From contig NZ_LHZQ01000212.1 of assembly GCF_001580915.1 (NCBI RefSeq), forward strand, positions 1 through 64,000: a DNA stretch of 64,000 bases, given 5' to 3'. The stretch comes from Acetobacter tropicalis (GTDB taxonomy: Bacteria > Pseudomonadota > Alphaproteobacteria > Acetobacterales > Acetobacteraceae). Positions 4,292-39,227 of this stretch are shown piece by piece. A program made the translations under genes and the position numbers. Positions within the stretch are counted from its first letter, which is position 1, and each line of letters begins with the position of its first letter. The notes under the pieces are model-generated. The model was given only the letters and a program-made list of their open reading frames with translations. It made no database searches and was not told where the DNA came from.

Positions 4292-4403
4292 AGCTGGCGA
4301 TCAGTTCCCAAAAATTCACGGCGCAAGGCCAAAAGCTGTTTTCGTTTGGCCCAACCGCCCCGCTTCATGCAAGGGATGATGTCAAAAGCAGGCACGTCCC
4401 GCG

Positions 4404-5444: not shown

Positions 5445-5496
5445 TCTTCCCCCTGCTTTTTCAGGACCGCGCGTTCACGCAGCAGCCCTGTTCTGA

Positions 5497-5979
5497 TCAG
5501 ACCTTAATCTGACGCAGCAAAGCAAGTGACTCCACACACGCAGCGGCCGCTTCACGTCCTTTGTTATGAATGTCATCGCGGGAGCGAAGTTCCGCCTGCT
5601 CATCGGTATAGGTGGTCAACACCCCAAACGCGATGGGCACTTCCGTCGCCAGAGAAGCCTGCATCAGGCCCATGGTGGTGCCCAGACTGATGAACTCAAA
5701 ATGCGCCGTATCACCCTTGATCACGCAACCAAGGCAGATCACGCCTTCATACCGACCAGATTTTGCCAGTGTCTGCGCCAGAAGCGGCATCTCGAACGCG
5801 CCGGGGGCTGCAAAAATATCGTTCTCACCTACGGTAATATTGTGCTCGGCCAGCCACGCAATGGCGCCATCGCGCAAGCCGCCCGTCACGTCCTCATTAA
5901 AGCGGCTGACAATCAGGGCCAGACGCGGGGCGGGAACCAGATTGAGGTCCGGCAGAGAAACCGGAATCCGTGTGCTCAT
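5497..5979 (-). CDS. ribH: 6,7-dimethyl-8-ribityllumazine synthase
   Basis: 160 residues, the normal length for lumazine synthase. It joins 5-amino-6-ribitylamino-uracil with 3,4-dihydroxy-2-butanone 4-phosphate, the penultimate step of riboflavin synthesis, in an icosahedral or pentameric shell. Visible signatures are SRFNEDVTGGLRDGA near 25-39, the substrate-binding GAFE at 60-63, and GCVIKGDTAHFE near 84-95 with the catalytic His93. It is the fourth gene of the rib operon, 46 bases after ribBA. In many proteobacteria nusB follows ribH; here hpnL follows instead. Confidence 0.95.
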   Translation of the reverse strand: MSTRIPVSLPDLNLVPAPRLALIVSRFNEDVTGGLRDGAIAWLAEHNITVGENDIFAAPGAFEMPLLAQTLAKSGRYEGVICLGCVIKGDTAHFEFISLGTTMGLMQASLATEVPIAFGVLTTYTDEQAELRSRDDIHNKGREAAAACVESLALLRQIKV

Positions 5980-6025: not shown

Positions 6026-7363
6026 TCAGACCGCCGCGCTGACCGTGGCGTCACTCACGGAAAAGTTACTCAGCCGATGCCCCATGCGCTGCCGCTTGGC
6101 ATTCAGGTAAGCCCGGTTGAAGGGGTTAACAGGTGTTTCCAGTCCGATTCTCTTGCGCACCATGAACCCACGCGCTTCAAGCGCGCGCACCTTGTCCGGA
6201 TTGTTGGTGAGCAGATCAAGCTGCCCCACGCCCAGATCACGCAGAATGGCGGCGGCGGATGTCCAGTCTCGCACATCGGTTGCAAAACCCAGCTTGTGGT
6301 TGGCATCCACCGTATCAAGCCCGGCGTCCTGAAGTTCGTAGGCGCGAATCTTGTTTACAAGCCCAATGCCCCGGCCTTCGTGCCCACGCACGTAAACCAG
6401 CACTCCGGTTTCCGCCTGCCCTATGGCTTTCAGGGCTGCGTGCAACTGCGTGCCGCAATCACACCGCAAGGACCCCAGCGCATCGCCCGTCACGCATTCG
6501 GAATGCAGCCTTACCAACGGCACAGCACCGGGTGCTGCGGGGTTGCCCTTTACCAGCGCCACGTGCTCCACATCCTGCGCATCTCGGAACGCATGGATCA
6601 CCAGATCTTCCCCGCCATAAGCGCTGGGCAGCGAGGCTTCCGCCAGATCAACCAGCGTTTCTTCCGGTGAAGAGGCAGGTTCCGCGTCCGTTACATCAGA
6701 AGCCAGAGGCGTCAGCCCATGGGCGCTGATCCATCGCACCAGCTCGGCAATGGAGATAATGGGCATGTCATGCTTGCGGGCATACACTTCCAATTCAGGA
6801 CGGCGAGCCATGGTGCCGTCCTCATTCAGAATCTCGCAGATCACGGACGCAGGGCGCAGCCCCGCCAGCTTGAGCAGATCAAGCGAGCCCTCCGTATGGC
6901 CAATCCGTTCCAGCACACCGCCGGGGGCAGCACGCAGCGGAAAGATATGGCCCGGTGTCGCCAGATCAGCCGGGGTTGCGGTTTCAGACGCTGCAACCTG
7001 CACCGTATGGGAACGGTCTGCAGCGGAAATACCGGTGGAAACCCCTTCCCGCGCCTCGATTGACACCGTAAAGGCCGTGTGGTGGCGGGCAGTGTTGTCG
7101 CGCACCATCATGGGCAGCCCCAGCCGCTCCACCTGCTGCGGTGTAAGAGGCAGACACACCAGCCCCCGCGCATGGGTGATCATGAAGTTCATGGCCTCGG
7201 GCGTCATGAACTCGGCGGCCATCACCAGATCGCCTTCATTCTCACGGTCTTCATCGTCCGTCATGATAACCATGCGTCCGGCCCGCAGGGCTTCAACCGC
7301 CCGTGCCAGCGCCGCAGAGGGAAGAGCAGGCACCACAGCCGCCCCTTTCACTTTGTCTGGCAT
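6026..7363 (-). CDS. ribBA: Bifunctional DHBP synthase / GTP cyclohydrolase II
   Basis: 445 residues in two fused domains. The first (about 15-215) is 3,4-dihydroxy-2-butanone 4-phosphate synthase, with the acidic loop DDEDRENEGD at 36-45 that binds ribulose 5-phosphate and magnesium. The second (about 250-430) is GTP cyclohydrolase II, with the zinc cysteines C290, C301 and C303 in the ECVTGDALGSLRCDC segment and RGHEGRGIGL in the active site. Both catalytic sets are intact, so it should supply both entry substrates of the pathway. The ATG at 7363 lies inside the end of ribE, a 16-base overlap that suggests translational coupling. Confidence 0.95.
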   Translation of the reverse strand: MPDKVKGAAVVPALPSAALARAVEALRAGRMVIMTDDEDRENEGDLVMAAEFMTPEAMNFMITHARGLVCLPLTPQQVERLGLPMMVRDNTARHHTAFTVSIEAREGVSTGISAADRSHTVQVAASETATPADLATPGHIFPLRAAPGGVLERIGHTEGSLDLLKLAGLRPASVICEILNEDGTMARRPELEVYARKHDMPIISIAELVRWISAHGLTPLASDVTDAEPASSPEETLVDLAEASLPSAYGGEDLVIHAFRDAQDVEHVALVKGNPAAPGAVPLVRLHSECVTGDALGSLRCDCGTQLHAALKAIGQAETGVLVYVRGHEGRGIGLVNKIRAYELQDAGLDTVDANHKLGFATDVRDWTSAAAILRDLGVGQLDLLTNNPDKVRALEARGFMVRKRIGLETPVNPFNRAYLNAKRQRMGHRLSNFSVSDATVSAAV

Positions 7364-7950
7364 AGAACCTCCACGTATTTTGCAATCACATCCACTTCCA
7401 CGTTCACGGCATCTCCTACGGAAAGGGTGCCAAGCGTGGTGTGGGTCCAGGTATGGGGGATGATCATCAGCGCAATAGGAAATACGCCGTCTTTCACGTC
7501 CCCAATCTCGTTCAGGGTCAGGCTGATACCATCCAGTGTGATGGAGCCTTTTTCCACCATGTAGCGGCGCAGGTTTTCCGGCACCTCAAACACCACGCGG
7601 CGGGCATCGCCCGAGGGCGTACACTCGGCAAACCGCGCTGTGCCATCCACATGCCCTTGCACAATATGGCCTGAAAGCCGGGTGGCAGGGGTTACGGCGC
7701 GTTCCAGATTGACACGGCTGCCAGCCTTGAGCGCCCCAAGGGTGGAGCGGTCCAGCGTTTCACTGCTGATAAAGAACTGCGCCACGCCGGTTGCCGCAGG
7801 TTCAACTGCTGTCAGGCACACGCCATTCACGGCAATACTTTCGCCTTCAGCAATATCTGTGAGCCCCGTATCCACTTCCACCATCAGGGATTTGTCTCCC
7901 GGTTCGGCTTTCAGAACATGGCCAAGAGATTCAACTATTCCGGAAAACAT
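7348..7950 (-). CDS. ribE: Riboflavin synthase, alpha subunit
   Basis: About 200 residues beginning MFSGIVESLG, the standard start of this enzyme; I therefore place the start at 7950 rather than an upstream in-frame codon at 7977. The protein is two tandem lumazine-binding barrels: the first holds NGVCLTAVE and the second LDGISLTLNE, each preceded by the GHIVQGHVDG-type loop. It dismutates two lumazines to riboflavin. The start overlaps the end of ribD by 16 bases and its end overlaps ribBA by 16 bases, so the three genes form one tightly coupled unit. Confidence 0.95.
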   Translation of the reverse strand: MFSGIVESLGHVLKAEPGDKSLMVEVDTGLTDIAEGESIAVNGVCLTAVEPAATGVAQFFISSETLDRSTLGALKAGSRVNLERAVTPATRLSGHIVQGHVDGTARFAECTPSGDARRVVFEVPENLRRYMVEKGSITLDGISLTLNEIGDVKDGVFPIALMIIPHTWTHTTLGTLSVGDAVNVEVDVIAKYVEVLCQTK

Positions 7951-8987
7951 GCTTGCTCCTGCGTGCACCGAGCCCACTCCGGAAACAGAGCAAGCGGTGT
8001 GACATCATGACGGGTTGAAACGGTGTAATGGTCCACCCCGGCGGCGTTCTGGCGAATGGTCAGCCAGTCGTCCCACAAATTCAGTTCTTTCAGGGCGGCC
8101 AGAAGTGTTGGCCCAGCCTCCACCAGCACCCACAGGGCATCTGTCTTGGCCAGCAGGGCGGGAAGATCGGCACAGGAGCGGCAGAACAGAACATCAAACT
8201 GCTTCTGCCGTTCGGCCAGCCAGTCTTCCGGTGTGTGGGCCTTCTGGCCACACACCACCAGCAGACGGCGACGGTCCGCGTAATCAGGCACATGCCGCAC
8301 GGTAAAGGCAGGGTTATCCGCCATAACAGTGCCCGTGCCTGTCACCACGCCATCCGTAGCGCGGCGCAGCACATGCGCGAATTTCAGAGATTCGGGAGAA
8401 GTGAAGGTTGTCTGCCCTTCAGGCGGCACCATTGTGCCAGCACTGTTCACGGCCTGTTTGACCGTAATCCACGGTCTGCCTTCCGTCATTTTACAGGCAA
8501 ACGGCGCAAGCAAAGCCTTGCACAGAGCAAACAGGGCAACCCCGTTCGTGCTTTGGGCCAACCAGTGCACGGTAACGCCCGCTTCTGTCAGGCGCGCTCC
8601 GCCACCGCCCGCAACGGTGGGGTTGGGATCTTCACTGCCGATCCATACGGTTTTCACAGGAGACTCAAGCAAGGCTTCCGTGCAGGGGCGTGTGCGTCCG
8701 ATATGATTACACGGCTCAAGCGTGACCACGGCTGTCCGCACACGGTCAAACACACCAGCCTGCTTTGCCTGTTCCAGTGCAAGACGTTCAGCGTGCAGAC
8801 CACCCGCCTTGTGGTGGGCCGCAGCGCTCAGCACCTCGCCTTCCGCATCCAGCAGCGCGCACCCTACGGCGGGGTTAGGCGCTGTCTGCCCGATAAAGCG
8901 AGAAGCCTCCGCTACAGCCGTACGGAAAGCCTGCCCGATCTGCTCAGGCACAAACACTGGCGCAAAGTGCGAAGGATTTTCCTGCAA
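7935..8987 (-). CDS. ribD: Bifunctional riboflavin biosynthesis deaminase/reductase
   Basis: N-terminal cytidine-deaminase-like domain with zinc ligands in GGLHAERLA and TLEPCNHIGRTRPC, then a C-terminal dihydrofolate-reductase-like domain with GRPWITVKQAVNSAG and VVTGTGTVMADNPAFT. It performs the second and third steps after GTP cyclohydrolase II. The open frame extends up to a GTG at 9017, but a TTG at 8987 has GGAG eight bases upstream and is my preferred start; the true start needs an alignment. The end of the reductase domain looks shorter and more divergent than usual. It is the first gene after the FMN riboswitch, so it is likely the directly controlled one. Confidence 0.9.
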   Translation of the reverse strand: MQENPSHFAPVFVPEQIGQAFRTAVAEASRFIGQTAPNPAVGCALLDAEGEVLSAAAHHKAGGLHAERLALEQAKQAGVFDRVRTAVVTLEPCNHIGRTRPCTEALLESPVKTVWIGSEDPNPTVAGGGGARLTEAGVTVHWLAQSTNGVALFALCKALLAPFACKMTEGRPWITVKQAVNSAGTMVPPEGQTTFTSPESLKFAHVLRRATDGVVTGTGTVMADNPAFTVRHVPDYADRRRLLVVCGQKAHTPEDWLAERQKQFDVLFCRSCADLPALLAKTDALWVLVEAGPTLLAALKELNLWDDWLTIRQNAAGVDHYTVSTRHDVTPLALFPEWARCTQEQACFPE

Positions 8988-9094
8988 CGCCCTGTCTCCA
9001 TTATCTGCCTTGATCACACCAGACAGACTCAGGGCATACAGCGGCTTTCACCGCCTGCCGCCTTCCATACAGAAAGGGCAGACGCCGCCATCGT

Positions 9095-9235
9095 TCTCTC
9101 TCATCCGGACTATCACCGTCGGCTCCGGAATTACACCGGATCTGCTGACCCTGCCGTAGCAGGCGCTCGCGGGCTTATGGCAGGCTAACCTGACCACTTA
9201 CCGCCGGTAGGGAATTGCACCCTGCCCTGAGAACG
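9095..9235 (-). promoter_or_regulatory. FMN riboswitch (RFN element) upstream of ribD
   Basis: Read on the minus strand this holds the near-invariant parts of the RFN aptamer: CAGGGCAGGGTGCAATTCCC, then ACCGGCGGTAAG, GCCCGCGAGCG, GATCCGGTGTAATTCCGG, AGCCGACGG and a closing GATAGTCCGGATGAGAGAG. It lies about 110 bases ahead of ribD and transcribes toward it. FMN binding normally shuts down the downstream genes. The expression platform between 9017 and 9095 contains a GC-rich hairpin candidate (GCGGTGAAAGCCGC) close to the start codon, but I cannot tell whether control is by termination or by translation. Confidence 0.97.
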
Positions 9236-9677
9236 TCATACCCGCCAGAAAAGCGGATACAATTCGTATGATGGGGATAATACGCTCAGCATGCAAGAGA
9301 GAAATACATCACGCTTTTGAGCGAGCCTTTAGCGTGCTTCTCCAACCCTCTGCACCGGCTGGGTTTTGCCGCCCGTGCCCACGCTCTGCAATCTTGTAAA
9401 ATGTTTCGGTTTATTTATGATTGAACCCATAGCACGCTTCTCTACAAGACCGACCGAGGCCCGCATGATCTCCGTTACCATTCTTCCTGCAAAACCGATC
9501 ATAAAAGTCTGTATATGAGCCTTCCTGCCGGGAGTTTTGCAGCCTCAACACCTTGTTGTGCCGCAATAAACTTACACAGCCTGCTTTTTCCGGTCCTTGT
9601 CCCGCTGGTCCATTCCGCCTGATCTGGATACCATGGGGCCAAGACCCGGCCCCTCTCCGCATTCTATGGAACCACCC
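9236..9677. other. Intergenic region between the divergent rib and bc1 operons
   Basis: About 440 bases separate the FMN riboswitch from cytochrome b. It should hold the rib promoter (minus) and the bc1 promoter (plus). Open frames here, such as one on the minus strand at 9411-9704, overlap the cytochrome b start and have no recognisable features. An in-frame TTG at 9597 would lengthen cytochrome b but adds a sequence without homologous character. Confidence 0.5.
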
Positions 9678-26127: not shown

Positions 26128-26464
26128 TGGGTCTCATCCAAACATATGCATGTGGCTGCTCCACCAGAAAACAGCCTCCACAAACCCTGAAAGAAAGGGG
26201 CTGCTTCCTGCCATAAACGCCGCAGGGAACCATCCTGTTCCGCAACGAGCCACAATGCTCTTGCCCTGCACTAGATCAGCAAGAGCTCTGCCGTCCAAGA
26301 CCTTTTCCTTATATAATAATAAACAGCAGTTATAATGGTGACCCGTTTGTGATCATTCTGCTTATCTGTCGCATTCTTGTATCTTGCCACGCTGCGCTGC
26401 ATGCCTATGCTATGGCTCTGATATCGTTACACGATCGCGTTGTTGCGCGAGGAGCTTCAGACCG

Positions 26465-27493
26465 TTGGCCACACCTCAACCCATTGACACAAAACTGACC
26501 CAGGCCGCCCTTTTCCTGGTGGTAACCCTGAACAGTGATACCCCGGATGCCGCGGCCATAACGCAGATCAAGGCCCTTATGGGTGACCTGTCCTCCCTTG
26601 TTCGCGGTGTGGGATTCCGGGTGCCTGACGGCAGGCTAAGCTGCATTACGGGCATTGGGTCCAACGCGTGGGATCACCTTTTTGGCACACCACGCCCGCG
26701 TGAATTGCATCCCTTTCGGGAAATCAATGGCGTGCATCACGCCCCCTCCACACCGGGAGACCTGCTGTTCCATATCCGCGCCACCCGCATGGATCTGTGT
26801 TTTGAACTGGGCACGGCTATCGTGTCCCGGCTGGAAGGCGTCGCCTCCGTTGTGGATGAAGTTCACGGTTTCAAATATTTTGATGAACGTGATCTGCTCG
26901 GCTTTGTCGATGGCACGGAAAACCCCACCGGCCAGCCAGCCCTTGATGCGACCCTCATTGGTGAGGAAGACCCGGCTTTTGCTGGCGGCAGCTATGTCAT
27001 TATTCAGAAATACCTGCATAACCTGAAAAAATGGGATGCCATCCCAACTGAAGTGCAGGAACATATTATTGGCCGCAAGAAACTATCGGATATTGAACTG
27101 CCAGAAGCCGATAAACCAAGCTATGCCCATAATGTGCTGACCAATATTGAAGAAAACGGGCAACAGCTTCAGATCGTGCGCGACAACATGCCGTTTGGTG
27201 AAGTGGGTAAAGGAGAGTTTGGCACCTACTTTATCGGCTATGCGTGCTCCCCTTCCCGCACGGAACAAATGCTGCAAAACATGTTCGTGGGCAAACCACC
27301 CGGAAATTACGACAGACTTCTGGATGTCAGCACCGCCGTTACGGGAACGCTGTTCTTTATTCCCACAAGTGATTTTCTGGACGGCGCGCCTGATCTGGAA
27401 ACAGCCGATCAGCCAGCACCTGCCCCCACTCCAGCCCCTTCACCTACCCCTGATCTGCCGAGCGGCTCTCTTGGAATTGGGTCACTCAAATAA
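26465..27493 (+). CDS. DyP-type haem peroxidase with encapsulin targeting tail
   Basis: About 342 residues from a TTG at 26465, which has GCGAGGAG ten bases upstream; an earlier TTG at 26384 gives a Cys-rich extension that looks non-coding. The DyP signature GFVDGTENP is at about 146-154, with the catalytic Asp. The proximal haem His is in PSYAHNVL (about 222) and the distal Arg in IVRDNMPFG (about 239). After residue 312 a Pro/Ala-rich flexible linker leads to the last ten residues GSLGIGSLK, the known cargo-loading signal for family 1 encapsulins. The encapsulin gene follows 11 bases later. It is therefore predicted to be packed inside that shell and to act on peroxide. Confidence 0.95.
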   Translation: MATPQPIDTKLTQAALFLVVTLNSDTPDAAAITQIKALMGDLSSLVRGVGFRVPDGRLSCITGIGSNAWDHLFGTPRPRELHPFREINGVHHAPSTPGDLLFHIRATRMDLCFELGTAIVSRLEGVASVVDEVHGFKYFDERDLLGFVDGTENPTGQPALDATLIGEEDPAFAGGSYVIIQKYLHNLKKWDAIPTEVQEHIIGRKKLSDIELPEADKPSYAHNVLTNIEENGQQLQIVRDNMPFGEVGKGEFGTYFIGYACSPSRTEQMLQNMFVGKPPGNYDRLLDVSTAVTGTLFFIPTSDFLDGAPDLETADQPAPAPTPAPSPTPDLPSGSLGIGSLK

Positions 27494-27504
27494 GGAGTTC
27501 TGAC

Positions 27505-28299
27505 ATGAACAATCTGCACAGACATCTGGCTCCCATTTCCTCCGCCGCCTGGGCCGAGATTGAAGATGAAGCCGCCCGCACCATCCGCCGCCATCTGGCT
27601 GGCCGCCGGGTTGTGGACACATCAGACCCCAAAGGCACCGCTTTTGCCGGTGTGGGCACCGGCCGCGCCAAACAGATTGAAACACTGGGCGAAGGTGTGC
27701 GGAGCGTTCTGCGGGATGTTCTGCCGCTGGTGGAACTGCGTGTTCCCTTTACCGTATCACGCGATGAAATTGATGCCGTGGAACGCGGCTCCCTTGATTC
27801 AGACTGGCAGCCAGTCAAGGACGCTGCAAAGAAAATTGCCTTTGCAGAAGATCGCGCCATTTTTGACGGATATGCCGCAGCAGGCATGACGGGCATCCGT
27901 CAGGGCACGTCAAACACGCATCTCAAACTCCCTGCATCGGTCAAGGATTATCCTGCCGTTATTTCTGCCGCGCTCAATGAATTACGTCTGGCGGGCGTCA
28001 ATGGCCCTTATTCCATTGTGCTGGGAGCCTCGGCATTTGAGGCCGTCAACGGCGGCGATGATGAAGGCTACCCCATCCGCAAACATCTTGAGAGCCTGAT
28101 TGACGGCAAGATCATCTGGGCCCCCGCCATTGAAGGTGCGTTTGTTGTCTCCACCCGTGGAGGTGATCTGGCGCTGGATATTGGGCAGGATTTTTCCATT
28201 GGCTATTTGAGCCACACGGCTGAAACGGTGGAGCTTTACCTGCAGGAAAGCTTTGTCTTCCGTGTGCTGACAAGTGAAGCCACTGTCGCCATTGACTAG
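27505..28299 (+). CDS. Encapsulin shell protein (family 1, linocin M18-like)
   Basis: 264 residues with the HK97-fold encapsulin pattern: MNNLHRHLAPISSAAWAEIEDEA at the N-terminus, given by its LHRHLAPISSAAW core, which forms the cargo-docking helix; FTVSRDEIDAVERGS in the E-loop; AEDRAIFDGY in the spine; and a C-terminal SYL-like strand ending EATVAID. Such proteins assemble into a 60-subunit, roughly 24-nm compartment. It is co-transcribed with the DyP cargo, preceded by AAGGAG, and followed by a strong hairpin. The system is cytoplasmic and protects against peroxide or oxidises an unknown substrate. Confidence 0.96.
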   Translation: MNNLHRHLAPISSAAWAEIEDEAARTIRRHLAGRRVVDTSDPKGTAFAGVGTGRAKQIETLGEGVRSVLRDVLPLVELRVPFTVSRDEIDAVERGSLDSDWQPVKDAAKKIAFAEDRAIFDGYAAAGMTGIRQGTSNTHLKLPASVKDYPAVISAALNELRLAGVNGPYSIVLGASAFEAVNGGDDEGYPIRKHLESLIDGKIIWAPAIEGAFVVSTRGGDLALDIGQDFSIGYLSHTAETVELYLQESFVFRVLTSEATVAID

Positions 28300-28676: not shown

Positions 28677-29015
28677 ATGACCACGATTTCCATTGATGAC
28701 TTCACCAAAATCGATATTCGCGTTGGAACAATCACTGATGTCCAGCCTTTCCCGGAAGCCCGCAAACCAGCTTGGAAACTAACCATTAACCTTGGCGCAG
28801 ACATTGGGCTGAAACGCTCCAGTGCCCAGATTACGGAGCTCTATTCCGCCGAGGCTCTGATTGGCCGGAAGGTTGCATGTGTGGTGAACCTGCCACCCCG
28901 CCAGATTGGCCCGTTTGTTTCTGAAGTTCTGACCTTGGGCTTCCCTGATGATCAGAAGCGCGTGGTTCTGACTATCCCTGAACGAGATGTGCCTGATGGC
29001 AGCCGCCTCTTTTAA
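28677..29015 (+). CDS. csaA: CsaA-like tRNA-binding-domain protein
   Basis: 112 residues, the usual length of stand-alone tRNA-binding (OB-fold) proteins of the CsaA/YgjH kind. Motifs: FTKIDIRVGTITDVQPFPEA, given by its IDIRVGTI core, then KPAWKLTINLG and GRKVACVVNLPPRQIGPF. In Bacillus CsaA is a dimeric secretion-related chaperone that also binds tRNA. It stands alone and ends inside a terminator, so context does not add to the role. Confidence 0.9.
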   Translation: MTTISIDDFTKIDIRVGTITDVQPFPEARKPAWKLTINLGADIGLKRSSAQITELYSAEALIGRKVACVVNLPPRQIGPFVSEVLTLGFPDDQKRVVLTIPERDVPDGSRLF

Positions 29016-29225: not shown

Positions 29226-30320
29226 TCACTCCCCCTGAGGGGGCGACACACCTCTGTCTCGCAAAAGCTGCCGCAAAGCGAGAATAACGGGAAAAACTTC
29301 CACGTTATGATCGCCCCCCAGTTCCTTCCATGCTTGCTGTTCCAGTTCCACAATTTCACGATCTTCAAAGAAAACGCGCTCTGTAAAAGCAACCAGCACG
29401 GGCCATGCCAGATCAAGCAGAAAGGGCACTTTCAGCCGTTTAATTGATAACAGCCCGAAAACCCGGTTTGTCAATTCCTGCCTGTCTTGAGGAACATAAG
29501 AGATCCATAACTCCATGACAGGCTCATCAATACCCTGCGTTTCAATACGCAGGGTTTGATAGGGATACTGTGTGCGGATGGTCATCACATCCCTATAAGC
29601 GAAGTCCCGGCCATCCTTACGCCTCTGGCCGTAAATCAGGGCCTCACTCAAGGGTTGCTTGCCGCCTGTGCGGGCAAATGTATAACGCGCTTCTACAAAG
29701 TCCTCACCACGATCCATGCCAAGGAAACGGGGTTTCATTTTACCTACAAGCCGACTGTGCAACACCTGATGGTTCATATCCATCAGGTTTTCATGCATGA
29801 AACTGTAATGACAATTGACCACCTGCCCAAAACGTCTGGTACGATAACGTTTATCTCTTACACGTGGAAAATCAGGAAGCGGTTTGGTCTCGGCCAGCGC
29901 CTGATTGCCCATGAAAACAAAAATAAGCCCGTCTTTTTCCCGGCACGCCCACGGCTTGAGGCGAAGGAGACCCGCATCGGCAGCGCCATTTTGGGAAACA
30001 CACTGCCCTTTTCTATCATATTTCAGACCATGAGCCAGACAGCTTATAAAATCCCCACAAACAGCACCTTTGCTCAGCGGCACCTGCTTATGGGGGCACA
30101 AACCATCCAATGCGTAAGGAGCACCGTTTGTAGGCCGCACCACCACCAGAGGATGGCCCGCAAACTGAACACCAAGAGCTTTACCGGGGCGCACTTCACG
30201 GGACCACGCAACGGGGTACCAAAAATTCGGATCACTTCTGACCCGTCTTAAATCAGCTTTTTCTAATAATGCAGCCTGCAAGGAATTTATAGTAGATCCA
30301 TTTTTCATACTTATGGCCAT
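29226..30320 (-). CDS. Rieske non-haem iron oxygenase downstream of a cobalamin riboswitch
   Basis: About 364 residues from the ATG at 30320 (MAISMKNGST); a second ATG at 30308 is possible. Near residues 75-97 the Rieske [2Fe-2S] ligands appear as CPH and, 17 residues on, CLAH. The mononuclear iron site is HENLMDMNHQVLH around residues 176-188. This is the VanA/pheophorbide-oxygenase-like alpha-subunit type, which hydroxylates or demethylates a ring or methyl group using a separate reductase. No reductase gene is adjacent. The cobalamin riboswitch 330 bases upstream on the same strand, with no larger gene between, implies that B12 represses it. The substrate is unknown. A B12-independent substitute for a B12-dependent enzyme is one possible role. 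Confidence 0.8.
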   Translation of the reverse strand: MAISMKNGSTINSLQAALLEKADLRRVRSDPNFWYPVAWSREVRPGKALGVQFAGHPLVVVRPTNGAPYALDGLCPHKQVPLSKGAVCGDFISCLAHGLKYDRKGQCVSQNGAADAGLLRLKPWACREKDGLIFVFMGNQALAETKPLPDFPRVRDKRYRTRRFGQVVNCHYSFMHENLMDMNHQVLHSRLVGKMKPRFLGMDRGEDFVEARYTFARTGGKQPLSEALIYGQRRKDGRDFAYRDVMTIRTQYPYQTLRIETQGIDEPVMELWISYVPQDRQELTNRVFGLLSIKRLKVPFLLDLAWPVLVAFTERVFFEDREIVELEQQAWKELGGDHNVEVFPVILALRQLLRDRGVSPPQGE

Positions 30321-30461
30321 CCCACACAACGCGGCTCAGACACAGGAAAAAAGATCTTCCCCTTGTAAGGATAGGGCTTCTCCTGCTTTTTTCCTGAACG
30401 CGTATACTCAGTTATCCGTCTTGAAAAGCACGCATTCCCGTTTGATTTTTGAGCAGATGCC

Positions 30462-30599
30462 TCAGACGGTAGAAGCCTTCCGCTTAGGGCAAACACGAAT
30501 TTTACTTTTTTGCTGAGAAAAAGCGGAGCTCTTCAGGAACGTAAGCGCCCCTGACGGTTCTTGCGTGAAAAACGGCTGACACATGCAGCAGACAGACAT
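30462..30599 (-). CDS. 45-aa cysteine-rich ORF next to cobalamin riboswitch 1
   Basis: Begins MSVCCMCQPFFTQE, with three cysteines in the first seven residues, and ends KIRVCPKRKASTV. AGGAG lies nine bases before the ATG, a much better ribosome site than that of the oxygenase. This site begins directly after the predicted regulatory hairpin of the riboswitch, so it could be the translation unit that the riboswitch controls. The stop lies about 140 bases before the oxygenase. It could be a leader peptide or a small protein. No homolog known to me; real expression is unproven. Confidence 0.4.
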   Translation of the reverse strand: MSVCCMCQPFFTQEPSGALTFLKSSAFSQQKSKIRVCPKRKASTV

Positions 30600-30609
30600 G
30601 TCACTTTTC

Positions 30610-30860
30610 TCCTCCCTTCGGTACATCCCGCCCGACGGCTGGTGGCTGGACGATGGCAGGTCTCCTGGCTCGCGGATTATGGCTTGCTGATTCAACCTTC
30701 CCGTTTCCTGATGAAAACAGTGGCGCACGTTCTACGCGACCAAACCAGAAGCATACCGCCTACAGTTGCGGGAGCAGCCTCCGACTACGCCTTCAAGGTC
30801 ACTCATTGACCCCTTGAGCATGACGGTGTTCCCTATTAACCCGCTTGCACGGGACCATCG
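30610..30860 (-). promoter_or_regulatory. Cobalamin riboswitch 1, facing the Rieske oxygenase
   Basis: On the minus strand the aptamer shows, in order, GGTCCCGTGCAAGCGGG and TAATAGGGAA near the 5' end, GGCTGCTCCCGCAACTGTA, GCCACTG, ACGGGAAGG and the B12 box AGCCAGGAGACCTGCC at 30656-30671. About 20 bases further, CGGGCGGGATGTACCG at 30619-30634 forms the loop and stem of the regulatory hairpin; its GCGGGA can kiss the TCCCGC in the aptamer loop. The same 16 bases occur after riboswitch 3. Confidence 0.95.
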
Positions 30861-31295
30861 AAGCGTTTTGCAGATACATCATGGGCCTAACCACCCCTCC
30901 CGCGCAAGATGCAATATAACATGGTAGAAGAACATAGCCATTAGCTCTGTGCATGGACTATAAAGAACGAACATATAAGAACGCACCCATTCTAAAAGAA
31001 AGTAAATTCCTCAGACCTTAGAATAGGACTCAAAAATTCCGTCGAACGTTTTCACTAATATCACGCAGGCTGAGAACAGTATTGACATTATTCGCATAAG
31101 ACACAGAAACACAGACGTTCTTTTCCCTTTCAACAAGAAGGTCTGGATTAGGAAAAACGAGAGTATGGGTTGTAGCCCTTAAACACTTTCCAGATGCAAG
31201 AAGCAGAGGATCTAAAAAGGAACGCTTTGAAATCATGAATAAAAATGGTATAATTTTCATAATTATATAAATTATACGCATACACGGAGCATTGC
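30861..31295. other. AT-rich divergent intergenic region
   Basis: Holds the promoter of riboswitch 1 (minus) and of the MetR-like gene (plus). An 83-codon minus-strand frame (31030-31281) is open, but it has AT-rich codon use and no recognisable motif, so I do not call it. The inverted repeat GTATAATT/AATTATAC at 31248-31277 lies 20 bases ahead of the regulator's ATG. Confidence 0.5.
31248..31277. promoter_or_regulatory. Inverted repeat ahead of the MetR-like gene
   Basis: GTATAATT and AATTATAC form a perfect 8-base dyad separated by 14 bases. LysR-type regulators often bind such sites near their own start. It is AT-rich, so it could also be a -10 region by chance. Confidence 0.4.
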
Positions 31296-32195
31296 ATGCC
31301 TGTTCTTGAACGTAGCCATCTGGCCATTATTCAGGAAGTTGCCCGCGAAGGATCGCTTACGGCAGCCGCAGCCAAGCTTAATCTGACCCAGCCTGCGCTC
31401 AGCCATGCCATTCGCAAGCTGGAAGACCAGCTTGGCGTGAAAATCTGGCGGCGGGAGGGGCGCTCCCTTACCCCCACCCAAGCCGGTGAGTGGTTGTTAT
31501 CCCTTGCCAACCGCTTGCTGCCGCAGTTTGCTCTGGCGGAAGACAGGTTGGAGCAATTTGCCAATGGCGAGCGAGGCACCTTACGCATCGGTATGGAATG
31601 CCACCCCTGCTACCAATGGCTTCTGAAAATTGTCTCACCGTATCTGGATCAATGGCCCAAAGTGGATGTGGACGTACGCCAGAAATTCCAGTTTGGCGGG
31701 ATTGGGGCCCTGTTCAGCAACGAGATTGATATTCTTGTCACGCCAGATCCACTTTACAAACCGGGGCTGAGTTTCACCCCCGTTTTTGATTACGAGCTTG
31801 TTCTGGTTGTGGGGCCGGACCACCCCCTTCGGCACACCAAATTCATCCTGCCCCAGCAACTTGCCGGGGAAACCTTGATCACCTACCCGGTCCCTTCAGA
31901 ACGCCTTGATATCTTCACGCAGTTTCTTCAGCCTGCTGGCATCAGTCCACGCCAGCAAAAGCAGATAGAAACCACGGACATCATGCTGGTCATGGTCGCG
32001 CATGGGCGCGGGGTTGCAGCCCTCCCCGGTTGGCTGGTGGAGGAATATGCATCCCGCTTTAATCTTTATCCCGTCCGGCTTGGCAAAACGGGTATTGCCA
32101 AGCAGATTTTCCTTGGTCAGCGCGAAACTGATGCCGACATTGAATATATGCGCGCCTTCATCCAGTTTGCGGCAGGAGCCATACCAACCCCCTAA
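31296..32195 (+). CDS. MetR-like LysR-type regulator
   Basis: 299 residues. HTH: GSLTAAAAKLNLTQPALSHA at about 19-38. The effector domain carries RIGMECHPCYQWLL at 97-110, very close to the RIAIECHSCIQWL of E. coli MetR, plus SGL/PGLSFTPVFDYELVLVVGPDHPL and the TYPV...RLDIFTQFLQPAG stretch that also match MetR. MetR senses homocysteine and activates metE/metH. Its placement among three B12 riboswitches fits a B12-methionine theme, because methionine synthase exists in B12-dependent and independent forms. No metE or metH is in the window. GGAG is six bases ahead of the ATG. Confidence 0.85.
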   Translation: MPVLERSHLAIIQEVAREGSLTAAAAKLNLTQPALSHAIRKLEDQLGVKIWRREGRSLTPTQAGEWLLSLANRLLPQFALAEDRLEQFANGERGTLRIGMECHPCYQWLLKIVSPYLDQWPKVDVDVRQKFQFGGIGALFSNEIDILVTPDPLYKPGLSFTPVFDYELVLVVGPDHPLRHTKFILPQQLAGETLITYPVPSERLDIFTQFLQPAGISPRQQKQIETTDIMLVMVAHGRGVAALPGWLVEEYASRFNLYPVRLGKTGIAKQIFLGQRETDADIEYMRAFIQFAAGAIPTP

Positions 32196-32200
32196 CGCGC

Positions 32201-34459
32201 TCAGAACCCCGCCTGAACGCTAATGGAAAAAGAACGCGGAGCCCCCAGCAGAATCTGCCCCGGATAACTGGTGTCTGCCCACTGCACAAAATGCTTATTG
32301 CCTATGTTATCAATCCGGCCATACACCGTAACACCCTTGTAAGCATGCCATCCTGCAAAAACATTTACCAAGGCATAATCTTTCAGGCTCAGGGTGTTGG
32401 CGTAATCCCCTTTACGCGCGGAAACATACCGTAACCCGGCCCCCAGATCGAGTGGCAGATCCGCCACCTGAGACCAAATCCCCCACAGGTTGGCCGTAAC
32501 AGCCGGAACGTTGGGCACCTGATTACCAGAAGCATTCAGAGCGGCGCTGGGATGAAACGAACCATAACGTGAATAGGTGTACGCAACATTCCCGGACAGG
32601 CTCCAGTGCTGGTTCAGCACAAGATCACCCTGCCATTCCAGACCACGGGATTTCTGAACACCTGCCGTCGCCACCGTATCCGGGCCTGTTGCCACAAGCA
32701 TGCGGGTGCGCCGGATATCATAAAACGACAGCGTTGTTGTAAAACGCCCGTGCCATGTGGAGGCCTTGACCCCAATCTCGCCCTGACGGGAATGGCTCAG
32801 GCGGCTGAACTGCCCCCGGTTAGCAAGAAAAATGTTAGACCCCGGAGGATCTTCCGCCGTGGTGTAAACACCGTAAAGACTGATATCTTTTGTCAGATCC
32901 CACACCGGGCCAATACGGAAATTGTCGGGATTGTAGTGCCCCTTGAAACTGCTGGCCGCATTGTACCCACCGTTCTGATTGTAGTTCTGACGGTTAAGGG
33001 CAAGCCAGTCATACCGAAAACCGCCTACAATACGCAGATTATCCCGAACAGTGAGAACATCTTCCAGAAAAAGACCGGCCTGCACCATGGTTGTAGGTGA
33101 TTTACGGAAAGGATATTCGCCTGCAAACGTGCCCAGCGATGTCTGCTCTGGACTGACAAGAGAGACACTATCCGCATAGGACGCATCAGGAAAACCGCGA
33201 TTACGGATAAACCGGAGATAATAGGCATCTCCGCCTAACACAAACCTGTTTTTCATGCCGAATATTTTGAAATCAAACTGCGTATGGAGGGTATCTCCTA
33301 CCTGATGCTGGTTTTGATACACATAAAATCTGTCACGCCCAATCCGGCCTGGCGCGATATTGTTCCCTCCAGCATCCACCGCGCCTGTCTTGCCAATGTA
33401 GCTCAGGCTTTCGGCATTGTTCCAACGGCGCTTGGAATACACAAAATAACTGCTGTTATGAATCTGGATAGTGGGGCTTACCTGCCAGTCAAGATGCAGG
33501 GTGGGCGTTGCATTGACAGAACCCGCTCGTCCATCACGTACGTTATAATAGCGCCACAAGGACCCTCTGGTGACCCCCTGCCCCTTGGAGGAACTGAGCA
33601 AGCCGCCAACGCGCCCGCCTGTTTGTGCAAGAGAGACCAGTGGTGTGCCATAATAGGTGGAGAGACGGTCTGTCAGGTAATCCATGCTCAGGCGCGCGGT
33701 GAAACGGTTTGTTGGTTTCCACAACAGTGTGGTTGTAAAATCATCTGAATGTGGATCTGCGCCTTTTACAAACCCGTCGGATGACGTGCGGCTGAAGTCT
33801 GAGCGAATGGCAAGCGTTTTTGTAATGGGCACGGACCCACCCACACCTGCATTCCAGGTGTTGAAGCTGCCGTAGGATAAGAGCGCATTGGCATGGGCTG
33901 CATCAAAATCCGGCGTTCTGGCGCGCATGTCCACCGTGCCGCCGACTGCCCCTTGTCCGTACAGCACGGAAGAAGGACCCTTCAACACCTGCACGCTTTC
34001 CAGATTGAAGGTATTTTGGGGCCGGTTAACCATGGTTGTTGGCCCGAAATAAAGACCATCACGCAAGATGAGGATCTGGTTTCCGGTAAAGCCGCGCATC
34101 ATCAACTGTGCCGGGCTACCAGGAGAACCACCGGAGGATACACCCGGCGCACTGTCCGCTGCACTTTCTGCCTGCGCATAACCACGCTGCATCATCAGAT
34201 CATGCTGAATAACGTTAATGGTAGCAGGCGAATGCTGGATGGAAAGACCAAGCCGTCCACCAACACCAGCCACCGTTTTCAGGAAGGCCGTTTTCCCATG
34301 TGTGGTGATGTATTCCGCTTTTCCGGCGGATGTAACATTCTTGGAAAGAGGGCCGGTTACACTCTGTTTCTGACCAGAACCGGTTGTTTCTGCATGGCCC
34401 GCGCTCATGCAGAAAAGGCCAGACGCCATAAGCGTCACGATATAATAAACTGGTCGCAC
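32201..34459 (-). CDS. TonB-dependent receptor under a cobalamin riboswitch
   Basis: 752 residues. Signal peptide 1-23 (cut at GHA-ET). The plug domain covers about 65-180, with PATINVIQHDLM, MRGFTGNQILILRDGL and VLKGPSSVLYGQGAVGGTVD. The rest is a 22-strand barrel ending in aromatic Phe (ISVQAGF). By sequence it looks like a siderophore-type receptor, but the riboswitch ahead of it argues for uptake of cobalamin or another corrinoid. The convergent end lies six bases from the MetR-like gene's stop. Confidence 0.9.
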   Translation of the reverse strand: MRPVYYIVTLMASGLFCMSAGHAETTGSGQKQSVTGPLSKNVTSAGKAEYITTHGKTAFLKTVAGVGGRLGLSIQHSPATINVIQHDLMMQRGYAQAESAADSAPGVSSGGSPGSPAQLMMRGFTGNQILILRDGLYFGPTTMVNRPQNTFNLESVQVLKGPSSVLYGQGAVGGTVDMRARTPDFDAAHANALLSYGSFNTWNAGVGGSVPITKTLAIRSDFSRTSSDGFVKGADPHSDDFTTTLLWKPTNRFTARLSMDYLTDRLSTYYGTPLVSLAQTGGRVGGLLSSSKGQGVTRGSLWRYYNVRDGRAGSVNATPTLHLDWQVSPTIQIHNSSYFVYSKRRWNNAESLSYIGKTGAVDAGGNNIAPGRIGRDRFYVYQNQHQVGDTLHTQFDFKIFGMKNRFVLGGDAYYLRFIRNRGFPDASYADSVSLVSPEQTSLGTFAGEYPFRKSPTTMVQAGLFLEDVLTVRDNLRIVGGFRYDWLALNRQNYNQNGGYNAASSFKGHYNPDNFRIGPVWDLTKDISLYGVYTTAEDPPGSNIFLANRGQFSRLSHSRQGEIGVKASTWHGRFTTTLSFYDIRRTRMLVATGPDTVATAGVQKSRGLEWQGDLVLNQHWSLSGNVAYTYSRYGSFHPSAALNASGNQVPNVPAVTANLWGIWSQVADLPLDLGAGLRYVSARKGDYANTLSLKDYALVNVFAGWHAYKGVTVYGRIDNIGNKHFVQWADTSYPGQILLGAPRSFSISVQAGF

Positions 34460-34745: not shown

Positions 34746-34872
34746 GCGATTGGCTGATAGACACAAACCCGTGAATTTTGTCAACGTGCGCGACATTTTT
34801 CCGAGCACTTCCCCAGTCTGCAAAGAATATTGCGGACTGCCCCATTTGTGTGCATTAGTTTGCTCACTTGTC

Positions 34873-35098
34873 GACAGTCCCGTGCGAACGGGCGAACAGG
34901 GAATGCCGTACGCCTTAGAGACCAAAGGCAAGTCGGCAGCTGCTCCCGCAACTGTATGCGGTATGGGTCTGATTTTTCCGCTGTAAAAGCGGGCCACTGG
35001 TGTCACCACCGGGAAGGCTGAATCAGAACCGATTATCCGCGAGCCAGGAGACCTGCTGTCGTCGTCTGACCGTGCCGCCGGGCGGGATGTACCGGAGG
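34873..35098 (+). promoter_or_regulatory. Cobalamin riboswitch 3, facing the BtuB-like operon
   Basis: Plus-strand motifs in order: GTCCCGTGCGAACGGG and GAACAGGGAATGCC, GCTGCTCCCGCAACTGTAT, GCCACTGG, ACCGGGAAGG and the B12 box AGCCAGGAGACCTGC (35042-35056). The regulatory hairpin at 35072-35099 has stem GCCGCCGG/CCGGAGGC and loop GCGGGATGTA; its GCGGGA can kiss TCCCGC in the aptamer and the 3' arm contains GGAGG. It diverges from riboswitch 2 with about 130 bases between, room for two promoters. Confidence 0.96.
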
Positions 35099-35202: not shown

Positions 35203-35616
35203 ATGATACTCGGTTTTCCTTCTCCACCCCGCGCCCGCACACCGCATGATGGTCTGCATCCGCTGGTGCGCACCATGATTGAACGCTGCCCGTCCCGTAC
35301 GGATGCGCTCAGGGCAGCCCTTATGGCGCACATGCCACCGCCCAATACAGAACCGGACATTGTTCAAAGCGGTTACAGCATTTTTATGAAAACCTTCGGC
35401 CCCTGCCCCCGCCCATACCAAGACAGAGGCACTGCACTGGAAGCGGCTTTTCGGCCCATGCTGGCCCATGCCCTTGATCTTCTGGACGCGCTACCGCCCA
35501 AGCTGGCCTTTCAGACCACGAAAGACGCAGAGCATATTGTGCAGACATATGTCACGGTGCACTGGACAGTTGGGGCCAGAGCCGCCGCCATGGCGCTTTA
35601 TGATGGCGTGACCTGA
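35203..35616 (+). CDS. 137-aa protein of unknown function in the B12-regulated operon
   Basis: Starts MILGFPSPPRARTPHDG with GGGGAG about 11 bases upstream. It has no signal peptide and is mainly helical after residue 35. Notable pieces: RTMIERCPSRTDALRAAL, SIFMKTFGPCPRPYQD with a CP motif, and HALDLLDALPPKLAF. I cannot place it in a family. Being the first full gene after the riboswitch and 63 bases ahead of the BtuB-like receptor, it is expected to be made only when B12 is scarce. Possible roles such as B12 handling are guesses. Confidence 0.6.
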   Translation: MILGFPSPPRARTPHDGLHPLVRTMIERCPSRTDALRAALMAHMPPPNTEPDIVQSGYSIFMKTFGPCPRPYQDRGTALEAAFRPMLAHALDLLDALPPKLAFQTTKDAEHIVQTYVTVHWTVGARAAAMALYDGVT

Positions 35617-35679: not shown

Positions 35680-37746
35680 ATGCCCGCACCCCGTTTTATC
35701 AGCCTCACCTTTCTGGTGTGGTTCCTTACTTCTGGCACTTTGCTGGCCGCAGAAAACACCGCCCCTTCCGCCATGCCGGCACACGTGACAAAAAATAAAT
35801 ATGGTTCCAAAAAGAAGAGACTACAGCATGAACATCTGACTGTGGTGGGGCATTCTCTTGAAGACACGCTCCCTGAACACCTTGCCCGCTCAGGGGTAAA
35901 AGTGGATGTTGTTCGGGCGCAAGCCATACGCAACGGAAACTATGTTGATGTGGCTCAGGCTCTCTCCGCCCTCGCGCCCTCCATGTCCGTCGCGCTCAAG
36001 AATGGTCCTTTCGATTACGCGGATGTTTCCCTTATGGGCTCACGCACCGAAGATGTGCTCTGGTTAGTGGACGGGGTGCGGATCAACAACCGCCTCTACG
36101 GTAGCACCCCGCCCCTTGATACACTGCCAGCCGCCATTGTTGACAGAATTGAAATTCTGGATGGAGGCCAGTCCCTTTTTTATGGCACGCAGGCCGTAGC
36201 GGGGGCGGTGAATATTGTTACCCGTCCTTTTTCCGATCATCTCACCGGCCAGATAACCGCATCTGGAGACAGCAACACCGGCAGACATCTTGACGGGTAT
36301 CTGGCCAATGCGATTGGGAAACATCGTTTTGTTGTCTATGCCTCGGGGGACGGAACAGACGGCTATCGCGCGTTTCGGAAACAGGATTATCAGCCTAGCG
36401 CAACACATCGGGACCGTAAATATTCCGTTTATACCGTTGGCGCAAAATACAATGTGGACATTACGTCAAAACTCAATCTGACAGCCACCTACCAGCATAC
36501 CATTGCCAACTTGGACTATGCCCGCCCTTACCGGGTGGCAAAAAATACAAATGACCGGGTGGAAGATCTTGCCACGCTCAAACTGGATTTTCATCCGCTG
36601 GAGCGTCTGAATTTCTATGTGAAAGGGTATTACCATAACTGGGATACCCATTATGACACGATTTATAATGATCTAAAGCACCCCGGCCAGCGTGATGTGC
36701 TCTACCGCAATGCCTATTGGGGGTATGAAGATTACGGCGTCAATGTGCTTGGGCGCGCCATCCTGCATCGGGGGCTGGAAGCATGGTTCGGCTATGACAT
36801 GCAACGCTATGGGGGGCAGGACAACGTTCTGCGTATTCTTCCGCAAACGGAAATGACCAACGCAGGCTTTGCACAACTCAGAATGACCCCAGATCTGCTT
36901 CCTCATGCCCATATTGCCGCGGGTTTCCGTTACAACAGCCCCACTACCGGACGCTCAGCCACAATCTGGAATGTGGTAGGGCGATATGATCTCCCCTTCA
37001 ATCTGTATGCAAGAGGTGAAGTGGGCACCAACTTCCGCCTGCCGACGGCTGAAGAACTGTTTGCTGATGATCCGCAGGATGAAAGAGGCAACCCGAACCT
37101 CAAACCCGAAAGAAGCCTGAGTGCCAATTTCTCCCTTGGCCAACGCCTGCAAAGTGGCCGTTTTGGAATACACTGGGACCTGACAGGCTTTGTTCGGCGG
37201 ATTGATAATCTGATTGACTACACAACCTTTGATGAAAAAACCGGCCAGGAGGTTTTTGGTAACGAGAACGGAACCGTACATGTGAACGGTGTCAGCATTT
37301 CAGGGGGAATGGAATTCAACCATAGTTTTTCATGGGACACCGCCTTTACATGGAACCACGCCCGCCAGAATAACGGGTTGCAAATGGTGCAGATTCCCCG
37401 CAGCCTCGTTAAAACCAGTCTGGATTACCACCCAAAGGATCTGCCTTTTGGGTTAACCGCAACATTTGTTTATACGGGGTCACAATATATCTCTGTTTCG
37501 GGGCAGAGAATAAACTATGGCAATTACCCTGTTCTGAATGTGTCGGGCCGTTATTATATTGATAAGGAGCGCCACCACACCTTGAATTTCAGCATTCAGA
37601 ATCTGACTGGCGCGGAATACGGCAGACCAAGCCGTGGATGCAAAGATACATCGACTGATGGTCCGTACGGATGCTCCCTCCCTTATCGGTATGTTTCTCT
37701 TGGGTGGCCACGCACGTTTCAGCTTGCCTATACCTATCGGTTCTGA
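35680..37746 (+). CDS. BtuB-like TonB-dependent receptor
   Basis: 688 residues, close to BtuB-type length. Signal peptide 1-24 (LLA-AE). The plug runs from about 50 to 180, with DVAQALSALAPSMSV, VLWLVDGVRINNRLYGS and IEILDGGQSLFYGTQAVAGAVNIV, given by their VDGVRINN and GTQAVAGAVNIV cores. The barrel ends in YTYRF. An unusual Cys pair, SRGCKDTSTDGPYGCSLP near 649-666, could make a disulfide in the last strands. Its stop overlaps the ATG of the PepSY gene (TGATG). The riboswitch upstream supports corrinoid uptake. Confidence 0.92.
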   Translation: MPAPRFISLTFLVWFLTSGTLLAAENTAPSAMPAHVTKNKYGSKKKRLQHEHLTVVGHSLEDTLPEHLARSGVKVDVVRAQAIRNGNYVDVAQALSALAPSMSVALKNGPFDYADVSLMGSRTEDVLWLVDGVRINNRLYGSTPPLDTLPAAIVDRIEILDGGQSLFYGTQAVAGAVNIVTRPFSDHLTGQITASGDSNTGRHLDGYLANAIGKHRFVVYASGDGTDGYRAFRKQDYQPSATHRDRKYSVYTVGAKYNVDITSKLNLTATYQHTIANLDYARPYRVAKNTNDRVEDLATLKLDFHPLERLNFYVKGYYHNWDTHYDTIYNDLKHPGQRDVLYRNAYWGYEDYGVNVLGRAILHRGLEAWFGYDMQRYGGQDNVLRILPQTEMTNAGFAQLRMTPDLLPHAHIAAGFRYNSPTTGRSATIWNVVGRYDLPFNLYARGEVGTNFRLPTAEELFADDPQDERGNPNLKPERSLSANFSLGQRLQSGRFGIHWDLTGFVRRIDNLIDYTTFDEKTGQEVFGNENGTVHVNGVSISGGMEFNHSFSWDTAFTWNHARQNNGLQMVQIPRSLVKTSLDYHPKDLPFGLTATFVYTGSQYISVSGQRINYGNYPVLNVSGRYYIDKERHHTLNFSIQNLTGAEYGRPSRGCKDTSTDGPYGCSLPYRYVSLGWPRTFQLAYTYRF

Positions 37747-39227
37747 TGCCCAGATTACCAAAATTGGCTTTACGCACCTTATATCTTACCCACAGGTGGA
37801 CCGGAATCTGCATGGGCCTGCTTATGGTTTTATGGTGCGCTTCTGGCATTGTCATGCTCTGGCACGGATGGCCGCAACCGGATGAGAAAGCCCAGCAGGC
37901 CGTTTATGCTCCACTGCATCTGCCGGATACTCTGCCTGATATTCCCAGCCTGAGCGCGCCCAATGCTCAGTTCCGTGGGTTTCGCCTTGCCTCGATTGGA
38001 GATGAACCTGTTCTGACCCTCTATCCAGCCAAGGGTTCATCCTTCGCAGTTGATTTAAGGACAGGACACACTGGAACAATTACCCCAGAAAACGCCAGCG
38101 TCAGCGCTCGACGCTATGCGCAGGCCACCGGCACCTATCAGGAACCCGTTTTTGATGGAACCACCACGGATGACCAATGGGTGCTGGATACGCATGGACG
38201 GCAGGATGGTTTTCACCGCTACCGCTTTGAAGATGTATCAAGAACTTATCTCTATGTTTCTCGCCTGACAGGCGATGTTGTGCAGGCCACCACGGCAGCA
38301 TCGCGGCGCTGGGCTTGGGTTGGTGCCATTCCTCACTGGCTGTACCCGGCACTATTACGCAGGCACCCCGCCCTATGGCAGCAGGTTGTTATTGTTTTTT
38401 CGGGCATAGGCGTGTTCCTGACCATAACCGGGCTTTTGGTGGGGGTTTTACGCCTGCGCCGTAAATGGCCGTTTTCCTATTATCGACGCTGGCATCTTGT
38501 CCACCATCTTGGCGGCACAGTATTTGGCCTTCTGGCGTTATCCTGGATTACAACAGGATTACTGACCATGAACCCGGCTGGACTTTTTGAAAGTGAGCAG
38601 GCTCTTCTCTACCCGCAACGTGTGAGTGGCGCTGTGAATGGGCGCACTATTCAAACATTTCTTCAGAAATTCATCACCACCCACCCATCCGCATGGACGC
38701 AGGTTCAGGGCGTGGTTCTGGCCGACAAAGTGTCATTACGTGTTGAAAAAAGAGACGGTCAGTCCGAGCGTTTGACCGCACAGCTTCAACCGGAACGTCT
38801 GACACCAGACATGCTGGAGAAGGCCCTCCACCAGCGGCATGTTCTTTCCCCACAGTCTGACCTCTCCCTCATAACGCGGCCCGATGCCTATTATTTTAAC
38901 CATGCCACACGCATCCGCACCTTCCCCGTTCTGAAAGGGACCGCGCCTGATGGCACGCTTCTCTACCTGAACGCGCAAACCGGAGAACTGGTCGCAGCGT
39001 TTGATACCCCCGCCAAACAATCCCGATGGATTGTTTACGGGCTGCATGACCTTGACCTATGGGAGTGGCTCCGCAAACCGGTTGCAAGATGGACTATTGT
39101 TTTTCCACTCCTATGCGGCGTCCTGCTGATTTACCTTTCAGGCGTTATCATTGCCGCCAAACGCCTGAAGTGGAAAATGGGCAGAAGAACAAGTTCATCA
39201 GGACAAAAAAACCTGATTAAATCATGA
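37746..39227 (+). CDS. PepSY-domain transmembrane protein (iron/flavin-reductase-like) in the B12 operon
   Basis: 493 residues from the ATG at 37746, which overlaps the receptor's stop as TGATG. Four main hydrophobic segments: about 18-38 (ICMGLLMVLWCASGIVMLW), 212-234, 261-281 and 452-472. Between them lie PepSY-type periplasmic domains with FRLASIGDEPVLTLYP and LYLNAQTGELVAAFD. HRWTGI near the front and HHLGGTVFGLLAL in the third helix supply likely haem-binding His. PepSY_TM proteins often sit beside TonB receptors and some act as periplasmic siderophore reductases. Here the cargo would be a corrinoid, so reduction of cobalamin at the inner membrane is a reasonable inference. Confidence 0.85.
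   Translation: MPRLPKLALRTLYLTHRWTGICMGLLMVLWCASGIVMLWHGWPQPDEKAQQAVYAPLHLPDTLPDIPSLSAPNAQFRGFRLASIGDEPVLTLYPAKGSSFAVDLRTGHTGTITPENASVSARRYAQATGTYQEPVFDGTTTDDQWVLDTHGRQDGFHRYRFEDVSRTYLYVSRLTGDVVQATTAASRRWAWVGAIPHWLYPALLRRHPALWQQVVIVFSGIGVFLTITGLLVGVLRLRRKWPFSYYRRWHLVHHLGGTVFGLLALSWITTGLLTMNPAGLFESEQALLYPQRVSGAVNGRTIQTFLQKFITTHPSAWTQVQGVVLADKVSLRVEKRDGQSERLTAQLQPERLTPDMLEKALHQRHVLSPQSDLSLITRPDAYYFNHATRIRTFPVLKGTAPDGTLLYLNAQTGELVAAFDTPAKQSRWIVYGLHDLDLWEWLRKPVARWTIVFPLLCGVLLIYLSGVIIAAKRLKWKMGRRTSSSGQKNLIKS

Follow-up and report, generated by a model that had tools for sequence, protein, structure and literature searches.

Vitamin B12 riboswitches often precede B12-free stand-ins, but to our knowledge no Rieske oxygenase has been described as one of these stand-ins, and none was named behind a B12 riboswitch in the literature searched. 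Why, then, does such a riboswitch stand in front of a Rieske oxygenase gene in Acetobacter tropicalis? The gene is part of a stretch of 64,000 nucleotides (contig NZ_LHZQ01000212.1, positions 1 to 64,000), which was analysed as a whole and is called the window here. A first-pass annotation, made from the letters of the DNA alone, had proposed a cobalamin riboswitch upstream of an intact Rieske oxygenase, the latter being the only large gene downstream. All of this was confirmed. The aptamer (RF00174; 30638-30874, minus strand) gave a full-length cmscan match of 91.3 bits (cut-off 31.5, E 2.5e-21) over model positions 1-189 of 189, and was one of six RF00174 matches in a genome-wide search of the window genome. 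The oxygenase gene (29226-30329, minus strand) encodes all metal ligands, and the next open reading frame, at 28677-29015, lies on the opposite strand. Elsewhere in the window, two B12 riboswitches face away from each other, one leading the gene of a siderophore-type TonB receptor (32201-34459, minus strand) and the other those of a BtuB-like receptor and a membrane protein of the PepSY type (35680-39227, plus strand). An FMN riboswitch was found at 9089-9238 (minus strand, 120.7 bits), and a DyP-type peroxidase gene is followed by an encapsulin shell gene at 26384-28299 (plus strand).

In acetic acid bacteria, the oxygenase family was found to fall into three groups, P1, P2 and P3, with the window gene in P3. 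Three starts are possible for it, TTG at 30329 (367 aa), ATG at 30320 (364 aa) and ATG at 30308; residues were counted from the ATG at 30320. The Pfam domains Rieske (PF00355, 69 bits) and VanA_C (PF19112, 53 bits) were detected, and the Rieske ligands C75/H77/C94/H97, the bridging D181 and the iron ligands H184/H188 and D320 were invariant in 42 family members. The AlphaFold model (pLDDT 80.6) predicts an ordinary Rieske monooxygenase fold of the alpha-subunit type. The closest solved fold was dicamba O-demethylase (DMO, DdmC, PDB 3gb4) with Z 29.1 and rmsd 2.9 over 323 residues; other near folds were guaiacol O-demethylase, SxtT/GxtA and N-demethylases including NdmA. P3 has the same order of metal sites as dicamba O-demethylase and related Rieske monooxygenases, but the identity to dicamba O-demethylase is at most 24%, and the iron motif is H-x3-H, not H-x4-H. 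We know of no B12 control for any of these enzymes. The best NCBIfam match, covering residues 26-355, was the model NF052579 of SdmA, a Rieske 4beta-methylsterol monooxygenase (PMC10202945) from a family of Rieske oxygenases of ring triterpenoids, which P3 resembles over its full length. The assignment as SdmA itself was rejected, because the score of 121 bits is far under the curated equivalog cut-off of 600; moreover, no sterol genes were noted near P3, and the P3 family is linked to hopanoids, as described below. Pairwise dN/dS values of P3 versus its relatives were 0.05-0.11 where computable, and sequence comparison indicates purifying selection on both P3 and the MetE-N-domain gene that precedes it in some relatives.

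How could the riboswitch reach the oxygenase? The expression platform (30600-30637, minus strand) consists of a hairpin of the form CC.UCGG...CCGA.GG and, following it, the Shine-Dalgarno sequence GGGAGGAG (30616-30609). Both elements are found 3' of the aptamer in A. senegalensis, A. malorum and N. cocois as well. It is this conservation that speaks for the hairpin, since its stability was no greater than that of shuffled sequences; the fold of the 361-nt leader was also unremarkable (z -0.61). The Shine-Dalgarno sequence serves a leader ORF of 45 aa (30462-30599, minus strand), which is presumably translated; the oxygenase start lies about 270-300 nt beyond the Shine-Dalgarno sequence. Between leader ORF and P3 start, the window has a gap of about 130-150 nt, which is not conserved among relatives. 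In these, the slot after the Shine-Dalgarno sequence is filled by a short leader ORF (Acetobacter) or a MetE-N-domain gene (Komagataeibacter). The equivalent Shine-Dalgarno sequence of Komagataeibacter opens a 360-aa MetE-N-domain gene (MetEN) with the oxygenase about 10 nt after it, and the leader ORF of Novacetimonas hansenii looks like a remnant of MetEN. As the platform Shine-Dalgarno sequence opens the first cistron, the riboswitch is anatomically translational and would act on that cistron. In the window its ribosome-binding site opens the 45-aa leader ORF, so that P3 would be controlled at the level of the operon at best. An uncoupling terminator or promoter, named in the first-pass annotation as the observation that would speak against the linkage, was not found on the minus strand between aptamer and oxygenase. 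Rho- or leader-mediated coupling is known at B12 riboswitch leaders with upstream ORFs, and leader ORFs at B12 riboswitches were studied for metE and ppe2 of M. tuberculosis (PMC11260477). Judged from the sequence, P3 in the window is likely under riboswitch control via its transcript, by Rho or coupling.

The linkage turned out to be specific for one clade. P1 is a core gene, and its tree follows the genera; the P1 copies of the window genome (3.56 Mb, 222 contigs) and of A. senegalensis are almost the same. P2 is about 50-56% identical to P3. P3 is monophyletic in acetic acid bacteria (branch SH-aLRT 100) with a long stem, and was carried by 9 of 49 genomes of the genus Acetobacter. In the initial search, RF00174 matched at a P3 locus in each of the eight genomes with P3. 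Among the 13 named P3 loci, which are not independent of one another, a riboswitch was present in the flanks of every one and directly upstream of the P3 unit in 12 (the exception being A. indonesiensis), compared with none of 67 loci of the paralogue P1. Co-occurrence of riboswitch and oxygenase clade in related genomes, on which the original proposal depended, was thus observed, and membership of P3 in the B12 regulon is well supported. P3 and P1 differ at 24 fixed positions, four of which (187, 190-192) are close neighbours of the iron-binding residues H184 and H188; with these differences, the substrate of P3 may have changed. In the window genome, P2 (L042:9919-11043) is next to pabB/pabC and P1 (L041:9883-10989) precedes metZ, and no hopanoid genes were found near either; in a relative (L021), P1 is followed by a SAM-alpha riboswitch. 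These are probably unrelated neighbours.

P3 also has characteristic neighbours. A MesX/MesD or MetE-N gene adjoins 11 of the 13 P3 loci versus 0 of the 67 P1 loci. One arrangement is common to A. malorum, A. senegalensis, K. rhaeticus and Gluconobacter potus: mesD-mesX are divergent from a unit of riboswitch, P3 and the small ORFs s139 and/or s92, and metR lies on the far side of mesD wherever the contig is long enough. Six further Acetobacter genomes have mesX (with mesD) divergent from riboswitch-P3, and the islands of one of them (G701) and of Gluconobacter potus additionally contain queH and metF. Islands uniting metR, metF, queH, mesD, mesX and riboswitch-P3 were noted at L063:706-5127 and L195:9322-15383. 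The riboswitch of Komagataeibacter and Novacetimonas cocois is followed by MetEN and then P3, and their island also holds other riboswitch-led units with metE (G135, L044), DUF2147, s92 and s139. Riboswitch-led genes for a stand-alone MetE N-domain protein (PF08267) without catalytic domain, under purifying selection, were observed at L055:4914-5996, L045:9829-10911 and L044:9507-10463. The small proteins s139 and s92 gave no Pfam matches, and no further mechanism emerged from s139, s92 and the MetE-N neighbours. An s139 homologue is also encoded at 35254-35604 of the window (plus strand), directly after the third B12 riboswitch (34858-35074), and members of this family are repeatedly found after such riboswitches in acetic acid bacteria. 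P3 islands are located on plasmids in A. ascendens, A. pasteurianus 386B and K. medellinensis, two of these plasmids being typed as conjugative. In A. pasteurianus plasmid records (e.g. NC_013210.1), several P3 copies are incomplete and unannotated; other strains have intact copies.

QueH is a cobalamin-independent alternative to QueG, the cobalamin-dependent epoxyqueuosine reductase. MesD/MesX form a methionine synthase that requires O2 but neither B12 nor folate (Price et al., 2021, PMC7857596). With these neighbours, the island represents a collection of B12-bypass functions. P3 shares with the MesD/MesX system the island, the B12-bypass logic, the O2 requirement and MetR alongside; however, MesX (PF08908) belongs to a protein family other than the Rieske oxygenases, and PMC7857596 names no Rieske protein. 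A second parallel is metE under B12 riboswitch control, where a B12 sensor also precedes a B12-independent stand-in and which is present on the P3 island of G135; P3 differs from it in being an oxygenase, not a methyltransferase, and the window has the intervening leader ORF. The earlier idea that the B12 regulon includes an oxygen-using stand-in agrees with the MesD/MesX, QueH and MetE-like neighbours, while its variant of an action on corrinoids or a role in B12 synthesis found no support. Replacement of CobG by P3 in aerobic B12 synthesis was rejected, since CobG (249 bits, cut-off 235), CobF and CobN are present in the window genome. NrdJ was likewise discarded as the enzyme replaced, with no match above the NrdJ cut-off in 20 genomes.

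In the window itself, the methionine synthase is missing. Positions 30571-30868 align to the riboswitch of a relative and 31235-31400 to the start of its metR, which lie on the two sides of mesX-mesD there; the pair measures about 2.7 kb in A. senegalensis. The alignment leaves a scar at 30875-31234 between the riboswitch and the divergent gene for a MetR-type LysR regulator (31296-32195, plus strand; NF011950 216 bits, under the cut-off of 382), which is 85-88% identical to the metR beside mesD-mesX in relatives. On this alignment, the window has the Acetobacter island layout from which mesX-mesD were deleted. Neither MesX (PF08908) nor MesD or any other PF01717 protein was found in the window genome, whose clear B12-domain enzymes are MetH and HpnR (901 bits). 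An obligate partnership of P3 with MesXD or MetE was rejected for the window genome, which has neither of them but an intact P3. This bears on a broader role of P3 in B12-free methionine synthesis, where it would be an oxygenative demethylase or donor-forming enzyme acting with the MetE-N protein in Komagataeibacter or with MesD/MesX in Acetobacter, parallel to the O2-requiring MesX. Such a role would agree with the operon shared with the conserved MetE-N-domain gene, the divergence from metR-mesD-mesX, the O- and N-demethylases among the nearest folds (DMO, guaiacol O-demethylase, NdmA) and the fact that the methyl donor of MesD is unknown (PMC7857596). It is weakened by the persistence of P3 without MesXD or MetE and by the sufficiency of MesD and MesX in E. 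coli (PMC7857596). Furthermore, most mesXD loci examined have neither riboswitch nor P3, and the P1 relatives track hopanoid genes. We consider the methionine role unlikely.

Similarly improbable in our judgement is P3 as a mere passenger of a riboswitch that evolved for the MetE-N gene or the leader, with P3 in the window using its own start, under no meaningful B12 control and perhaps orphaned by the loss of mesXD. The Shine-Dalgarno sequence opening another ORF and the variable distance between leader and P3 would be expected in this case, and Acetobacter P3 islands are indeed broken in some strains, with stops in the L051 copy. Nevertheless, purifying selection keeps P3 after the loss of the first cistron and mesXD, the riboswitch is kept where these were lost, and the coupling described at other B12 riboswitches (PMC11260477) offers a precedent for control across a leader.

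What P3 acts on is best approached via its wider family. Outside the acetic acid bacteria, a P1-like Rieske protein was found in 7 other alphaproteobacterial genomes of about 380. Squalene-hopene cyclase was present in all seven, in one of them (G342) as a two-part match slightly below the cut-off, versus 9 of 51 controls (Fisher p 3.8e-5); using one genome per genus and controls of at least 2.3 Mb the p-value was 0.0027. The cyclase is also present in the window genome (G000) and in G056. In G572, of another alphaproteobacterial family, the P1-like Rieske gene and hpnI are arranged tail to tail, and hpnN is close (L202:8030-9139; 6854-8041; 2902-5502), which makes its product a candidate hopanoid oxygenase or desaturase. 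G572 was the sole such case, with no hopanoid genes near the Rieske gene in the Burkholderia, Mycetohabitans, Streptomyces and other alphaproteobacterial neighbourhoods examined. Burkholderia cenocepacia has a Rieske homologue of 51% identity, and one of its hopanoids is unsaturated, with a putative annotation as delta-6 (PMC8560942). A survey from 2025 gives 49-82% unsaturated hopanoids in the acetic acid bacteria tested versus 0-3% in the three other Acetobacteraceae tested, calls the hopanoid desaturase genes unknown and puts forward another protein for this role, of 260 aa and from the 'sterol desaturase family', with a distribution that it describes as 'not 1:1' (PMC12583986). Cyclase co-occurrence, hpnI adjacency, the unsaturated hopanoids of Burkholderia and acetic acid bacteria and the best match to SdmA together make a hopanoid the best guess for the family substrate. 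A different small-molecule substrate in cells short of B12, for instance a corrinoid, a methylated thiol or a precursor of queuosine, would be compatible with regulon membership alone and with QueH in two islands. It is very improbable, as CobG already serves B12 synthesis, P3 has no cob gene next to it in the window and the family link is to hopanoids.

HpnR is the B12 radical-SAM hopanoid C-3 methylase; with HpnR in the window genome, a B12-dependent step acts on hopanoids there. An HpnR-sized B12-domain protein is also encoded in most relatives without P3, so that co-occurrence of HpnR and P3 provides no contrast. Our tentative preference goes to P3 as a B12-repressed, O2-dependent Rieske oxygenase of hopanoid type in a mobile B12-bypass module, made when B12-dependent enzymes such as MetH and HpnR fail. 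When B12 is scarce, the riboswitch would permit translation of the leader or first cistron, and the transcript would continue from there into P3. P3 would then be made alongside the B12-free replacements of MetH (MesD/MesX or MetE) and of QueG (QueH). Going by its family, it would most likely oxidise the hopanoid ring system, by desaturation or hydroxylation, and may thereby adjust membrane hopanoids when HpnR cannot work.

For acetic acid bacteria, the B12-bypass island predicts which functions fail without B12. It is further conceivable, though doubtful, that the unassigned enzymes which desaturate or hydroxylate the hopanoid rings belong to the P1/P2 family, which extends to Burkholderia, with P3 as a plasmid-borne, B12-controlled version that would switch from methylation by HpnR to O2-dependent oxidation when B12 is absent. 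At the level of the family, the link offers a concrete gene candidate for the delta-6/delta-11 unsaturated hopanoids, which are used as lipid biomarkers.
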